A DNA stretch of 53,331 nt, from assembly GCF_002150785.1 (NCBI RefSeq), contig NZ_MTAZ01000053.1:1-53331 (forward strand), written 5' to 3'. A model generated the notes under the pieces. The model made no database searches. It worked only from the letters and a program-made list of their open reading frames with translations, and was not told where the DNA came from. The translations under genes were made by a program, and so were the position numbers. Positions 30,340 to 34,949 of the stretch are shown piece after piece (positions within the stretch are counted from its first letter, which is position 1; each line of letters opens with the position of its first letter). Source of the stretch: Arenibacter amylolyticus (lineage in GTDB: Bacteria; Bacteroidota; Bacteroidia; Flavobacteriales; Flavobacteriaceae).

Positions 30340-30792
30340 ATGAAAGATATAACAATAGATTATGCGTTACGGGCCACTTGGCAAGCAGTAACTAAAATGT
30401 ATAATGAAGAGGCTAAAAAGTTTGAAAGCACCATGGCCGTGGGTTTTACCTTATTGAGTATAGATCCCAAAACAGGAACTCCTTCCACCGCCTTAGGGCC
30501 AAAAATGGGTATGGAAGCCACCAGTTTGTCCAGAATTCTAAAAAGTATGGAGCAAAAGGGATTGATTGTACGTAAACCTAATCCCAATGATGGCAGAGGG
30601 GTACTGATTCACCTAACAGATTTTGGAAGGGAAAAAAGGGACGATTCCAAAGCTGTGGTACTCCGGTTTAATGAAACGGTACGCTCCCATGTTTCCGAAG
30701 AAAAGCTAGATGCCTTTTTTGAGGTTACCGAGCTGATTAACCGTTTAGTCTCCGAAAAGAAAATTTATCCTAAAAAGACCATAACTAATTAA
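30340..30792 (+). CDS. MarR family regulator of the fad operon
   Basis: A 150-residue DNA-binding repressor candidate. Winged-helix segments: GFTLLSIDPKTGTPSTALGPKMGMEATSLSRILKSMEQKGLIVRKPNPNDGRG is recognisable in pieces (ATSLSRILKSMEQKGLI recognition helix about 65-82; wing RKPNPNDGRGVLIHLTDFG). The fadN start is 11 bases after its stop, so it is in operon with the beta-oxidation genes it probably controls. A 24-bp palindrome overlaps its promoter. By analogy with other fatty-acid regulators (FadR, PsrA, FabT), an acyl-CoA effector is expected, but this is inference. Confidence 0.88.
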   Translation: MKDITIDYALRATWQAVTKMYNEEAKKFESTMAVGFTLLSIDPKTGTPSTALGPKMGMEATSLSRILKSMEQKGLIVRKPNPNDGRGVLIHLTDFGREKRDDSKAVVLRFNETVRSHVSEEKLDAFFEVTELINRLVSEKKIYPKKTITN

Positions 30793-30803
30793 TATTAAAA
30801 TTG

Positions 30804-33209
30804 ATGAAAAGACATATTAAAAAGGTAGCAGTAATTGGCTCCGGTATTATGGGAAGTGGAATTGCATGCCATTTTGCCAATATAGGTGTAGAAGTATTGC
30901 TATTGGATATTGTTCCTAGGGAACTCAATGAGAAAGAGAAAGCTAGCGGACTCACCTTAGAGGATAAGGTAGTTCGCAATAGATTGGTGAACAATTCCCT
31001 GAAAACCGCACTTAGTTCCAAGCCCTCCCCTATTTACCATCAAAAATTTGCCCAGCGTATCGTTACAGGAAACCTAGAAGATGATATTGCTAAAGTGGGT
31101 AATGTTGATTGGATTATTGAGGTGGTGGTAGAACGATTGGATATTAAGAAAAAAGTGTTCGAGAATCTGGAAAAACACAGGAAACCAGGAACCTTAATTA
31201 CCAGTAATACCTCTGGTATTCCCATAAAATTTATGAGTGAGGGAAGAAGTGAGGATTTCCAAAAACACTTCTGTGGAACCCACTTTTTTAATCCAGCCAG
31301 ATACTTAAAATTGTTCGAAATTATCCCAGGACCCAAAACCTCTCCGGAAGTCTTGGAGTTTTTAAATGGGTATGGGGAACGGTTTTTAGGAAAGACTTCT
31401 GTTATAGCTAAGGACACCCCCGCCTTTATTGGTAACCGGATCGGCATCTTTGGCATCCAAAGCCTATTCCATATGGTAAAGGAAATGGATCTTACCGTAG
31501 AAGAGGTAGATAAATTAACAGGCCCTGTAATAGGTAGACCTAAGTCTGCCACCTTCCGTACGGTAGATGTTGTAGGCTTGGATACCTTGGTACACGTAGC
31601 CAATGGTATCCATGAGAATTGCCCTAAGGATGAACGGCACCAGCTGTTTCAGCTTCCCGACTTCATCAATACTATGATGGAGAACAACTGGTTGGGTAGT
31701 AAAACAGGGCAAGGATTCTACAAGAAAATAAAAAATGAGGACGGTTCTAGTGAAATAAAGACCTTAGACCTCAATACCATGGAATACAGGTCCAAGAAAA
31801 GGGCCAATTTTGCTACTTTAGAACTTACCAAGACCATAGACAAGGTAGTAGACCGCTATAAAGTATTGGTAGGTGGAAAAGATAAGGCCGGGGAATTTTA
31901 TAGAAAAAGTTTCGCTGCTCTTTTCGCCTATGTTTCCAATAGGATTCCTGAAATAGCCGATGACCTTTATAAAATAGATGATGCCATGAAGGCCGGATTT
32001 GGCTGGGAGCATGGGCCGTTTCAAATCTGGGATGCCATTGGGGTCCAAGAAGGCTTGGAAATGATTAAAAGCGAAGGATTATCTGCAGCCCCATGGGTTA
32101 CAGATATGATGGAGTCCAATTCTAAATCGTTTTATACGGTGAAGGAGGGCGCTACCTATTATTATAACATCCAATCTAAAAAATCGGAAAAGGTACCTGG
32201 TCAAGATGCCTTTATTATCCTAGACAACATTCGCAAGTCTAACCAAGTTTTCAAAAACAGCGGAGTAGTTGTGGAAGATCTAGGGGATGGAATCTTAAAT
32301 GTAGAGTTCCAATCCAAAATGAACACCATTGGCGGCGATGTATTGGCCGGATTAAATAAAGCCATTGACATAGCAGAAAAAGATTTCCAAGGTTTGGTGG
32401 TGGGGAACCAAGCCCCTAATTTTTCGGTTGGTGCCAATATCGGAATGATTTTTATGATGGCTGTAGAACAGGAGTATGACGAGCTGAATATGGCCATTAA
32501 AATGTTCCAGGACACCATGATGCGGATGCGATACTCTGCTATTCCTACGGTATCTGCTCCTCATGGAATGACCTTGGGAGGAGGTTGTGAGCTCACCTTA
32601 CATGCAGACAAGGTAGTAGCCGCCGCAGAGACCTATATAGGACTAGTAGAATTTGGCGTAGGAGTTATCCCAGGTGGTGGTGGATCCAAGGAGTTTGCCC
32701 TCCGTGCCCAAGACACTTTTAAAAAGAACGATGTGGAACTCAACGTGCTACAAGAATATTTCCTAACCATTGGTATGGCTAAAGTTTCCACTTCTGCCTA
32801 CGAAGCCTACGATCTTGGAATTTTACAGCATGGCAAGGATATCGTAGTGGTTAATAAAGACCGACAAATAGCTACTGCCAAGGCTCATGCCCAGCTAATG
32901 GCAGAGGCCGGATACACTCAACCCATTAAGCGAAAGGATATAAAAGTACTGGGAAAGCAAGCACTTGGAATGTTCTTGGTGGGAACCGATGCCATGGAAG
33001 ATAGCAATTATATTAGTGAACACGATAAGAAAATAGCCGATAAGCTAGCCTATGTTATGGCAGGTGGAGATCTTTCCGAACCTACCTTGGTATCAGAACA
33101 GTATTTATTGGATCTGGAAAGGGAGGCCTTTCTTTCCCTATGTACGGAACGAAAAACCCTGGAAAGAATTCAGCATATGCTAAAGACTGGGAAGCCCTTG
33201 AGAAATTAA
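30804..33209 (+). CDS. fadN: 3-hydroxyacyl-CoA dehydrogenase/enoyl-CoA hydratase, FadN type
   Basis: An 801-residue two-step beta-oxidation enzyme. I start at ATG 30804 (the TTG at 30801 directly before it is not needed). The N-terminal dehydrogenase comes first: NAD loop VAVIGSGIMGSGIA (about 8-21), GTHFFNPARYLKL and DTPAFIGNRI. The C-terminal hydratase follows from about residue 485: oxyanion segment SVGANIGM, GMTLGGGCELTLHA and LVEFGVGVIPGGGG. Both hydratase glutamates (in GGCEL and in LVEFG) are present. Domain order dehydrogenase-hydratase is that of B. subtilis FadN, the reverse of E. coli FadB. fadA and fadE follow; the inserted element interrupts the fadN-fadA junction. Confidence 0.93.
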   Translation: MKRHIKKVAVIGSGIMGSGIACHFANIGVEVLLLDIVPRELNEKEKASGLTLEDKVVRNRLVNNSLKTALSSKPSPIYHQKFAQRIVTGNLEDDIAKVGNVDWIIEVVVERLDIKKKVFENLEKHRKPGTLITSNTSGIPIKFMSEGRSEDFQKHFCGTHFFNPARYLKLFEIIPGPKTSPEVLEFLNGYGERFLGKTSVIAKDTPAFIGNRIGIFGIQSLFHMVKEMDLTVEEVDKLTGPVIGRPKSATFRTVDVVGLDTLVHVANGIHENCPKDERHQLFQLPDFINTMMENNWLGSKTGQGFYKKIKNEDGSSEIKTLDLNTMEYRSKKRANFATLELTKTIDKVVDRYKVLVGGKDKAGEFYRKSFAALFAYVSNRIPEIADDLYKIDDAMKAGFGWEHGPFQIWDAIGVQEGLEMIKSEGLSAAPWVTDMMESNSKSFYTVKEGATYYYNIQSKKSEKVPGQDAFIILDNIRKSNQVFKNSGVVVEDLGDGILNVEFQSKMNTIGGDVLAGLNKAIDIAEKDFQGLVVGNQAPNFSVGANIGMIFMMAVEQEYDELNMAIKMFQDTMMRMRYSAIPTVSAPHGMTLGGGCELTLHADKVVAAAETYIGLVEFGVGVIPGGGGSKEFALRAQDTFKKNDVELNVLQEYFLTIGMAKVSTSAYEAYDLGILQHGKDIVVVNKDRQIATAKAHAQLMAEAGYTQPIKRKDIKVLGKQALGMFLVGTDAMEDSNYISEHDKKIADKLAYVMAGGDLSEPTLVSEQYLLDLEREAFLSLCTERKTLERIQHMLKTGKPLRN

Positions 33210-33214
33210 ACTTT

Positions 33215-33246
33215 TTAGTAGTGAGTAGTTAGTATTGAGTAGTTAG
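33215..33246 (+). repeat. Left inverted-repeat arm of the IVS-like element
   Basis: Three segments pair with the right arm: 33215-33220, 33224-33239 (16 bp, perfect) and 33241-33246. They are separated by a 3x4 internal loop on the outside and a bulge on the inside. The repeats of the unit AGTAGTTAGTATTGAG are also internally degenerate (AGTAG recurs). Confidence 0.8.
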
Positions 33247-33252
33247 ATTGTA

Positions 33253-33579
33253 ATGCATAAAGTTGAGAGTTTAAAAATATGGCGAAAGTCTATGGATTTA
33301 TCTAAATCCATCTATCAACTTGTTTCAGAGTTACCCTCCGATGAAAAATATGGGCTTAATTCTCAAATAAAACGGAGTTTTATCTCAATTCCTTCAAATA
33401 TAGCAGAGGGTGCGGGAAGAAATTCTAATAAAGAGTTTAAACATTTTTTGGCAATTGCAAATGGACCGACCTATGAATTGCAAACCCAATTAATACTCCT
33501 AGGAGAGCTAAATTTAGTGACAAAAGAAAAAGTGCAACCAATTATTGATAAATGTATCGAAATTCAAAAAACACTATAA
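33253..33579 (+). CDS. Four-helix-bundle protein, 23S rRNA intervening-sequence (S23) family
   Basis: A 108-residue all-helical protein. Family marks are the opening VESLKIWRKSMDLSKSIYQL, the YGLNSQIKRSFISIPSNIAEGAGR core and the helix EFKHFLAIANGPTYELQTQL. The usual length is about 115-125. Such proteins were first noticed inside intervening sequences of 23S rRNA genes and are also found at dispersed genomic sites in Bacteroidota; their molecular function is not established. Here the gene sits between fadN and fadA inside a pair of inverted repeats, transcribed in the same direction. It has no role in beta-oxidation that the sequence suggests. It looks intact, not decayed. Confidence 0.9.
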   Translation: MHKVESLKIWRKSMDLSKSIYQLVSELPSDEKYGLNSQIKRSFISIPSNIAEGAGRNSNKEFKHFLAIANGPTYELQTQLILLGELNLVTKEKVQPIIDKCIEIQKTL

Positions 33580-33589
33580 ATCATAATAT

Positions 33590-33636
33590 CTCAATACTAA
33601 CTTCTCAATACTCAATACTAACTACTTTGTACTAAG
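33590..33636 (-). repeat. Right inverted-repeat arm with CTCAATA tandem units
   Basis: Contains three CTCAATA units (33590, 33604, 33611). The last begins the perfect 16-bp complement (33611-33626) of the left arm 33224-33239, and TACTAA at 33631-33636 complements the outer left segment. The extra unit makes an 8-nt bulge in the predicted RNA stem. An AAGTACTT palindrome lies at 33635-33642. Confidence 0.8.
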
Positions 33637-33653
33637 TACTTAATACTTATTAA

Positions 33654-34844
33654 ATGAAAACAGCATATATAGTAAAAGCATATAGAACAGCGGTAGGAAA
33701 GGCACCAAGAGGGGTCTTCCGTTTTAAACGAACCGATGAATTGGCAGCGGAAACCATCGAATATATGATGAAAGAACTGCCACAATTGGACAAAAAACGA
33801 ATTGATGACGTAATTGTAGGGAACGCCATGCCAGAAGGCTCTCAGGGTCTAAATATGGCCCGACTCATATCTTTGATGGGGTTAGACATCGTAGATGTTC
33901 CCGGGGTGACCGTCAATCGTTTTTGTGCCTCTGGGATTGAAACCATAGGAGTAGCCACCGCCAAGATTCAGGCCGGGATGGCCGATTGTATCATTGCAGG
34001 AGGTGCCGAAAGCATGAGTGCGGTCCCTATGACGGGCTACAAAACGGAGCTGAACTACGACTTGGCAAAATCTGGTCACGAAGATTATTACTGGGGAATG
34101 GGGAATACGGCCGAAGCCGTTGCCAAGCAGTTTAAGGTATCTAGGGAGGATCAGGACGAGTTTGCCTACCAATCTCATATGAAAGCCCTAAGGGCACAGG
34201 CAGAAGATCGCTTCCAGAGTCAGATTGTACCCATAGATGTAGAGCAGGTGTACGTAGACGAGAATGGAAAGAAAGCCACTAAAAACTACACGGTTACCAA
34301 AGATGAAGGTCCGCGTAAAGGAACCAATTTGGAGGCCTTAGCAAAGCTCCGCCCAGTATTTGCCGCCGGAGGGAGCGTTACCGCCGGGAACTCGTCCCAA
34401 ATGAGTGATGGAGCAGCCTTTGTAATGGTAATGAGTGAGGAGATGGTCAAGGAATTAAACTTAGAGCCGATTGCCAGATTGGTAAATTATGCGGCCGCAG
34501 GGGTAGAACCGCGGATTATGGGCATTGGTCCGGTAAAAGCAATTCCAAAAGCATTAAAACAAGCGGGATTAAAGCAAGACGATGTATCTCTAATTGAACT
34601 CAACGAGGCTTTTGCCTCCCAATCTATCGCCGTAATAAGGGAATTAGACCTTAATCCAGACATCGTGAATGTAAACGGTGGCGCCATCGCCCTTGGTCAC
34701 CCCCTAGGTTGTACTGGAGCAAAGCTATCCGTACAATTGTTCGATGAAATGAGAAAGCGGGATATGAAAGGTAAATATGGTATGGTAACCATGTGTGTGG
34801 GAACCGGACAAGGAGCAGCTGGTATTTTTGAGTTCCTTAATTAG
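33654..34844 (+). CDS. fadA: Acetyl-CoA acyltransferase (3-ketoacyl-CoA thiolase)
   Basis: A 396-residue thiolase catalysing the last step of beta-oxidation. The nucleophile C91 lies in [10 protein letters not shown]. The catalytic H349 is in [11 protein letters not shown] and the base C381 is in [11 protein letters not shown]. All three residues are present, and the length matches (about 390). It lies just after the IVS-like element; the fadE gene follows 105 bp downstream. The stop-to-start distance from fadN is 444 bp, because of the inserted element. Function is inferred from the operon and motifs; biosynthetic versus degradative thiolase cannot be separated by eye, but the fad context favours degradation. 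Confidence 0.94.
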
Positions 34845-34949
34845 AAAGGTTTTCTAAATAATAGTAATATCAACAAACAATAATTAATGTTAAACTATAA
34901 AAACCCCAGAACACCTGTGATTTAAAAGGCAGGTAGGGAAAAATGGCCT

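Follow-up and report, generated by a model that had tools for sequence, protein, structure and literature searches.

What is a gene of the S23 family, the family of 23S rRNA intervening-sequence proteins, doing between two genes of a putative protein-coding operon? The question is raised by contig NZ_MTAZ01000053.1 of Arenibacter amylolyticus (Flavobacteriaceae; assembly GCF_002150785.1), of which we analysed positions 1 to 53,331; this whole stretch of 53,331 nt is called the window below. Between a fadN-like and a fadA-like gene lies a unit of ~440 nt in which an S23 gene is enclosed by two mutually complementary arrays of degenerate 7-nt repeats (heptads). We consider it probable, at roughly two chances in three, that this unit is a selfish intervening sequence (IVS) of the 23S type, living in mRNA at operon junctions.

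The fadN–fadA gap is 444 nt long and holds a single notable open reading frame (ORF), at 33253–33579 on the forward strand. Its 108-residue product matches the Pfam family 23S_rRNA_IVP (PF05635) over positions 1–104 of the 106-position model (E = 5.5e-37; 126.7 bits against a cut-off of 33.8), and it also matches TIGR02436 (E = 6.5e-34). AlphaFold2 predicts a bundle of four helices with a mean pLDDT (per-residue confidence) of 95.1, and the closest PDB structures to this model are the S23 structures 2gsc (TM score 0.89) and 2rld (0.85). On the 5′ side of the gene is a 43-nt degenerate array (left arm, 33210–33252, forward strand), in which identity at a lag of 7 nt is 0.64 and at a lag of 14 nt is 0.72; from position 33215 its heptads read TTAGTAG TGAGTAG TTAGTAT TGAGTAG TTAGATT. 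On the 3′ side is a 74-nt array complementary to it (right arm, 33580–33653, forward strand), with values of 0.63 and 0.70. Across the window, lag-7 identity of at least 0.64 over 28 nt is found in these two arms only.

A preliminary description of this DNA, made from the letters alone, had placed a four-helix-bundle gene of the S23 family inside inverted repeats at the fadN–fadA junction, and all of these parts are there. The repeat, given as 16 perfect base pairs plus 6 + 6, is real and was understated in length: a perfect stem of 18 bp joins AGTAGTTAGTATTGAGTA at 33224–33241 to its complement at 33609–33626 (both forward strand), compared to a longest run of 13 bp (mean 7.9) in 300 dinucleotide shuffles. 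A further 6 bp (TTAGTA) lies outside this stem. The predicted duplex of the two arms has an energy of –38.3 kcal/mol, versus –21.5 ± 3.4 for shuffled arms (best shuffle, –34.2), and the 18-bp stem is part of the minimum-energy fold of a 466-nt stretch, in which the arms pair with each other (z = –3.06; 1 of 100 shuffles was equally stable).

Two traits of 23S IVSs are thus present, namely terminal inverted repeats able to form a stem and 7-nt repeats beside an S23 ORF; that the latter is a defining trait of IVSs is a proposal of the present analysis. A third, location inside a 23S rRNA gene, is absent, as the element lies between fadN and fadA and a scan of positions 32900–33900 with Rfam, at E values up to 1, matched no family. 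The element is therefore IVS-like rather than a 23S IVS.

Is this anatomy peculiar to one locus? We assembled 178 different full-length S23 genes from 240 matches, after dropping 41 partial or broken genes and 21 duplicates. For 170 of them, neighbours of at least 100 residues were called on both sides, and 162 of these lie between neighbours on the same strand; of the other eight, six precede a convergent gene, one follows a divergent gene, and one is antisense to both neighbours. By comparison, 135 of 276 random gene triples drawn from 20-kb regions of S23-bearing genomes were all on one strand, as were 141 of 289 from genomes without an S23 match. Median gaps flanking S23 in the 162 same-strand elements are 51 and 46 nt. 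These elements fall into 64 sites.

The gaps are heptad arrays as a rule. Mean lag-7 identity is 0.50 in both flanks (150 left, 132 right), compared to 0.31 after shuffling, and lag-14 identity is 0.48 and 0.455, with the remaining lags at baseline. The signal begins at the stop codon of the upstream gene and is at baseline inside the S23 ORF and the neighbouring genes. Among lags of 4 to 12 nt, the best period is 7 in 134 of 162 elements (50 of 64 sites); lag-7 P values are ≤0.05 in 131 of 162 elements and ≤0.01 in 42 of 64 sites. Taken gap by gap, lag 7 is best in 103 of 125 left and 83 of 108 right gaps touching S23, versus 22 of 137 random gaps from S23-bearing genomes and 11 of 130 from genomes without a match. 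The difference between these last two values makes for only a weak link between array abundance and S23 content in random 20-kb samples. The unit itself varies widely from element to element (AGTATTG, TAGACTC, AAGTACC, GGTCAGT, AACAATG, GTTTCTG and others), and some elements have periods of 8 or 9 nt. As a side observation, the stop codon of the upstream gene is TAG in 66 of 131 cases (17 of 44 sites), compared to 29 of 162 S23 genes and 42 of 135 downstream genes. This excess is modest at best, and it may often be the first heptad that contributes the stop codon.

Complementarity of the two arms is likewise a general trait. Predicted pairing between the left and right flanks of the same element has a median energy of –36.9 kcal/mol, versus –26.2 when right flanks are taken from other elements. 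The element's own partner beats all 25 swaps in 37% of the 178 elements and 90% or more of them in 58%, a comparison that is conservative because the swaps include relatives. In local alignment, the median score of the arms is 15 in inverted orientation, 7 in direct orientation and 7 for swapped arms; counted once per site, inverted exceeds direct in 48 of 64 and is lower in 11 of 64 (P = 2e-6). Since complementarity is kept while the motif differs between elements, the arms covary at the level of the whole arm. Arms of S23 genes at least 60% identical but located at different sites have a median score of 15 (155 pairs), compared to 10 for 400 sampled pairs below 40% identity, and the P value of this contrast (1e-26) is overstated because pairs share members. 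This likeness implies that the arms travel or evolve with their gene.

The same anatomy is found in ribosomal copies. Among 22 plasmid records with an S23 match, we read 17: 15 annotated copies, a copy in Azospirillum lipoferum, and L305, which was left out of the scoring. Heptad flanks are seen at P = 0.003 in 13 of the 15 annotated copies, two of which are near-identical and from one strain. In the A. lipoferum plasmid, S23 lies inside a 23S rRNA gene (the Rfam LSU match spans the copy), and its arms are inverted heptads, AGAGGAC GGATGAC AGAGGAC GGAGGAC on one side and GTCCTCT GTCTTCT GTCATCC GTCTTCT on the other. The available text of PMC4990558 describes tandem GACAGAT heptamers 5′ of S23p in the Coxiella IVS, variable in copy number among strains, and places RNase III cuts in the stem of that IVS. 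The mRNA elements and these two rRNA elements thus have one anatomy, a comparison based on one locus analysed here and one paper. An Rfam scan of 20 of 80 S23 loci on named contigs placed none within rRNA, and no S23 match was found at E = 1e-6 among 50,697 phage records. Several plasmid copies lie in CRISPR operons of cyanobacteria (L289, 2498–2866; L291, 2501–2860; L301, 1983–2339): S23 is found between cas6 and cas4 (type I-D) on plasmids of Anabaena sp. 90 and Pseudanabaena galeata; a Picosynechococcus plasmid has it between cas10 and a gene of the cmr3 family (type III-B).

How did the element come to occupy this junction? The hexamer ATTAAA flanks a 438-nt stretch on both sides, once overlapping the fadN stop codon (33205–33210) and once running into the fadA start codon (33649–33654), and removal of that stretch with one ATTAAA gives AAT TAA ATG. 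From this, recent insertion with duplication of a 6-bp target had been proposed, into a junction where the fadN stop directly preceded the fadA start. We compared this junction between A. amylolyticus, 17 further genomes of its genus and 43 other genera of the family. These 43 had the best matches among 141 other genomes in which fadN was matched; four cases on short contigs or in incomplete genomes were skipped. An element-free junction is indeed tight, with a gap of 3–13 nt in 20 of the 43 genera, although a gap of zero is not matched. Recency and target duplication did not hold up: ATTAAA is not bilateral in nine other orthologues of the window type, and none of the 17 genus mates has an empty junction, so that reading was dropped. 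Within the genus the site is occupied, with no empty allele and no similar-ended copy, which is the outcome that the preliminary description had itself named as refuting its proposal. The pair of ATTAAA hexamers is probably a matter of chance. What remains of the earlier account, an S23 element built like an IVS and located in a protein operon, stands.

These results bear on a further candidate, a non-autonomous transposon resembling a miniature inverted-repeat transposable element (MITE), which would duplicate its target and be mobilised in trans by a transposase or a Y1/REP (repetitive extragenic palindrome) nuclease. The inverted ends and the bilateral ATTAAA of the window are what such an element would have, but the hexamer fails to recur in the orthologues and arm sequence differs between elements. 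The Y1_Tnp family is unmatched at E = 1e-6 in the A. amylolyticus genome and in G044, G045, G030 and G041, each with 6–10 S23 copies (other transposases were not searched for). Nor does the A. amylolyticus genome have a close second copy. Copies with the same ends, for which the preliminary description had suggested a search, were not found there with an S23 gene; the four other S23 copies are 28–52% identical, and the arms of the one whose flanks were examined (L002) differ from those of the window element. By eye, the L002 arrays (G000:C58, ~1230–1420 and ~1830–2030) look to be of 8 nt rather than 7, of the type CATAACTT / GTTATCAA. We regard a MITE-like origin as extremely improbable.

If not recent in A. 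amylolyticus, the occupation of this junction is far from static. Ten of the 18 genomes in the genus (A. amylolyticus included) have an S23 gene there: the window's own, two at 83–85% identity to it, one at 52% and six at 34–38%, among which the G015 gene has an early stop close to its end. The remainder comprise three S23 genes interrupted by a frameshift or stop, two that have lost large internal segments, and three genomes with inserts of 107–168 nt in which S23 is not recognisable; no empty junction was found among the 18 genomes searched. One deleted copy (L071) retains both arms and so shows a route by which an S23 element loses its ORF. In the 43 other genera, S23 is present at the junction in eight, ORF-less inserts of 32–138 nt in 15, and the junction is empty in the 20 mentioned above. 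Lag-7 P values are ≤0.03 in seven of 14 ORF-less inserts tested, with 7 the best lag in five of those, and two of five short genus-mate junctions reach the same level. On a fadA tree of 61 junctions with four states (S23, remnant, ORF-less insert, empty), at least 24 changes are needed, versus a shuffled mean of 32.2; junction states are therefore also partly inherited. Well-supported branches alone force six changes for S23, on a bootstrap that had not settled. A small palindrome of the CGCAA-CTAG/CTAA-TTGCG type spans the fadN stop in L095, L107, L080 and L094, where an insert follows, and is not seen at the empty sites examined.

The element also appears to have moved separately from its surroundings. 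In six of eight chosen species pairs it is more alike than both of its flanks: G006/G009 (identity 0.975, versus 0.877 and 0.882), G007/G001 (0.993, versus 0.928 and 0.916), G007/G004 (0.963, versus 0.865 and 0.831) and likewise G007/G015, G001/G004 and G013/G016, pairs among G007, G001, G004 and G015 not being independent. The synonymous difference in S23 is 0.09 where it is 0.56 in fadN and 0.47 in fadA. For an older pair, A. amylolyticus and G009, synonymous differences are 0.62, 0.60 and 0.68; thus the element is not intrinsically slow. A second junction (L053/L050) behaves in the same way, with an element identity of 0.982 versus 0.878 and 0.885 in the flanks. We take this junction to be sdhA–sdhB, given that a Fer2_3 domain is matched there in L151. 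This second hotspot (L042–L046, L050, L053, L056) has two S23 types within one genus, apparently at a single junction. Judging from these alignments, elements can be younger than their own flanks, and mobility, no longer argued from ATTAAA, is supported instead by element-limited identity between species and by the swapping of unrelated S23 types at one junction.

Could such spread be entirely passive? The insert might be a neutral passenger, moved by homologous recombination upon DNA uptake between related species, with arrays built by polymerase slippage and a sense bias left by the purging of harmful placements. Tracts of flank do travel with the element (~40 nt of fadA in G006/G009, ~80 nt in G007/G001 and, on the right side of the sdhA–sdhB element, >100 nt), which encodes neither transposase nor nuclease; antisense plasmid copies exist; and slippage is a proposed origin of heptanucleotide repeats (Mrazek 2007, cited in the available text of PMC4679880 and PMC4692102). 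However, the blocks of identity stop ~0–100 nt from the element, while recombination across an unrelated insert is expected to carry longer flanks. Slippage alone yields neither the complementarity of the arms nor the association of arrays with S23, and it is S23 pairs of at least 60% identity at different sites that have a common arm sequence. We find a purely passive insert rather unlikely.

Nor do the data favor an insert kept for the host's benefit, with S23 and the stem recruited to tune processing or stability of the fad operon mRNA. Reuse of the same operon points in that direction: the fad junctions are a hotspot, with 10 of 91 S23 copies in family genomes lying ≤3.5 kb 3′ of fadN, all on the fadN strand, and the next junction, between fadA and an acyl-CoA dehydrogenase gene (34845–34949, forward strand, free of heptads in the window), has an S23 match in eight of the 43 other genera. 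So does the low ratio of nonsynonymous to synonymous change (dN/dS), which for window-type S23 is 0.05–0.18 where computable, indicative of purifying selection. Against this, the fadN–fadA junction is empty in 20 of 43 other genera, at least five of 17 genus mates have a decayed gene, and at this junction the window type gives way to S23 types of 34–52% identity. As S23 genes also adjoin sdhB, folD, panB and a radical-SAM gene and lie in CRISPR operons, no common function is apparent. A host-useful regulatory insert is accordingly improbable in our estimation.

The nearly absolute sense orientation (162 of 170) invites an explanation at the RNA level, in which excised IVS RNA would be reinserted into transcripts and copied by a reverse transcriptase acting in trans. 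Insertions in rRNA as well as mRNA would fit such a cycle, of which the resemblance to Avd would be a relic. Avd/bAvd proteins of diversity-generating retroelements (PF22296, NF033474, 4dwl) have the same four-helix fold (TM score 0.75 to 4dwl), and the S23 product matches PF22296 and NF033474 with E values of 3.1e-4 and 1.1e-5, both under the curated cut-offs; with the NCBIfam Avd model it scores 25.7 bits against a cut-off of 80. Unlike Avd systems, S23 copies abound in genomes where RVT_1 is unmatched at E = 1e-6: G024 (15 copies), G023 (11), G044 (10), G036 (8) and G045 (8). No reverse transcriptase was found near the element, the sole RVT_1 match of the genome being on contig C85 and the window on C52 (template and variable repeats were not searched for). 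That the element requires a reverse transcriptase or a Y1 nuclease as helper is unsupported, the one or the other being unmatched in several S23-rich genomes. The antisense copies on cyanobacterial plasmids also argue against movement through RNA, which we judge very improbable. Sense bias can instead come from selection, in that a translated sense ORF may spare downstream genes, and three antisense copies do exist on cyanobacterial plasmids.

A selfish, IVS-like element would behave as follows. The unit of ~440 nt, an S23 gene between two inverted heptad arrays, would be transcribed with its host operon, and its insertion in sense orientation would be tolerated at intercistronic junctions, much as some helices of 23S rRNA tolerate IVSs. 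Once the operon is transcribed, the arrays would pair to form a long imperfect stem around the S23 ORF. RNase III would most likely cut this stem, leaving fadN, S23 and fadA on separate pieces of mRNA. The S23 protein, with its predicted four-helix bundle and Avd fold, would be kept by purifying selection during the spread of the element, in which it probably acts on the arms of its own unit. The element would move between species into the same junction with little flank. Later decay would leave remnants of arrays lacking the ORF.

Several observations weigh against this interpretation or narrow it. The lag-7 signal fails to reach significance in 31 of 162 elements, and gaps near S23 that do not touch it are also heptad in 63 of 151 cases, perhaps because second S23 sites and arrays lacking an ORF lie close by. 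Bacteroidota and the fad operon weigh heavily in the survey, whose two largest site clusters contribute 51 and 21 of the 162 elements. Arms are direct rather than inverted in 16 of 113 strong cases. In L291 (120 nt on each side), the left array is AAAAGCT over ~100 nt and the right is AAAAGCC, that is, direct, and these arrays are therefore unable to form the usual stem. Two of the 15 annotated plasmid copies (L295, L301) are without a 7-nt signal, and three of 15, on cyanobacterial plasmids, are antisense to both neighbours. Among ten window-type orthologues, compensatory changes in the stem are absent, the pairs being nearly invariant, and the consensus fold is weak (–19.9). Two species pairs give no element excess (G004/G015, 0.949 versus 0.952 and 0.956; G007/G016, 0.876 versus 0.908 and 0.893). 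Of 221 same-site pairs, 67 are informative; the S23 synonymous difference is less than half that of the neighbours in 11, which are non-independent and come from two site clusters, and it is above that of both neighbours in eight. S23 is also less constrained than fadA (dN/dS 0.01–0.02). Finally, co-transcription as one operon and cleavage by RNase III are steps that we infer, as are the action of S23 on its arms and the mechanism of transfer.

Arrays without S23 are found elsewhere in the A. amylolyticus genome. Allowing one mismatch, the motif AGTATTGAGTATTG has 23 matches there, versus one for the reversed control; it is at least five above control in six of 30 other genera and close to control in the rest. 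Of 13 motif places examined, nine have a heptad stretch and four do not. Most of these arrays stand alone, with a clear inverted partner within 700 nt at one of the 13 places (L010), which is a further point against the favored reading. Heptad arrays without S23 and with no clear inverted partner are seen at L014 (C58:6619–6667), L029 (C13:40300) and L032 (C13:42876), the last two between genes on the same strand; these may be remains of S23 elements. A broader scheme is possible, and we offer it tentatively. The 23S IVSs would be only the most visible representatives of a large group of mobile IVSs residing mainly in mRNAs, and S23 would recognise or build the 7-nt arrays and drive homing-like spread to the same junction. 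Loss of the ORF would leave heptad arrays behind, which would explain why heptanucleotide repeats have long been seen to abound in cyanobacteria, Xanthomonas and Bacteroidota.

The genes on either side are as follows. The fadN-like gene (30801–33209, forward strand, stop TAA at 33207–33209) encodes an 802-residue 3-hydroxyacyl-CoA dehydrogenase/enoyl-CoA hydratase, whose best NCBIfam match is NF052272 (E = 6.7e-178, under the cut-off of that model); the name fadN is taken over from the preliminary description. The fadA-like gene (33654–34844, forward strand, ATG at 33654) encodes an acetyl-CoA C-acyltransferase of 396 residues (TIGR01930, E = 1.5e-130). Directly 5′ of fadN is a gene for a MarR-family regulator (30340–30792), possibly the regulator of the fad operon.

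How does the element compare to known systems? It is most like the 23S rRNA IVSs with an S23p ORF, listed in the available text of PMC4990558 for Leptospira, Xanthomonas and Brucella, where IVS function and origin are called unclear. In common are a sense S23 ORF in a transcribed unit, a length of ~430 nt, stem-forming inverted repeats at the ends, repeats of 7 nt (in Coxiella and Azospirillum), an ORF prone to decay, and a spread thought to be horizontal. The difference lies in the host transcript, which for the window element is an operon mRNA, with the insert between cistrons, and in the cleavage by RNase III, which is putative here. If RNase III cleaves the stems, this kind of insertion, able to cut polycistronic messages, would rewire the expression of housekeeping operons across bacterial families.

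Short inverted-repeat units between genes are also known as REP/BIME (bacterial interspersed mosaic element) sequences and MITEs. Unlike these, S23 elements have no common end sequence and no kept target duplication, and the Y1 nuclease was not found in several carriers. Another parallel is offered by heptameric simple repeats, to which the cyanobacterial short tandemly repeated repetitive sequences (STRR) belong. Their units have been reported as TAACTGA (PMC4679880) and as GGGAATC in Xanthomonas and GGGGA(C/T)T in Nostoc (PMC4692102), with 70 and 75 inverted pairs in two Xanthomonas genomes and few in Nostoc (PMC4692102). As far as the available text of the two papers goes, these repeats too are 7 nt in unit, mostly intergenic and largely between genes on the same strand, and they are described with no settled cause. 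In contrast to the elements studied here, they are described without a gene, and neither 'S23' nor 'helix bundle' occurs in the text of PMC4679880 and PMC4692102 that could be searched. We found no literature joining S23/IVP genes to heptad arrays or operon junctions, in a search whose coverage mostly excluded subscription papers and preprints. S23 genes, 23S IVSs and heptamer repeats are each already known; what appears to be new is the link of S23 to heptad arms and operon junctions. A constant 7-nt ruler that flanks S23 genes, in mRNA as well as in one or more 23S rRNAs, joins the puzzle of the IVSs to that of the heptanucleotide repeats, and it offers a testable protein for both.

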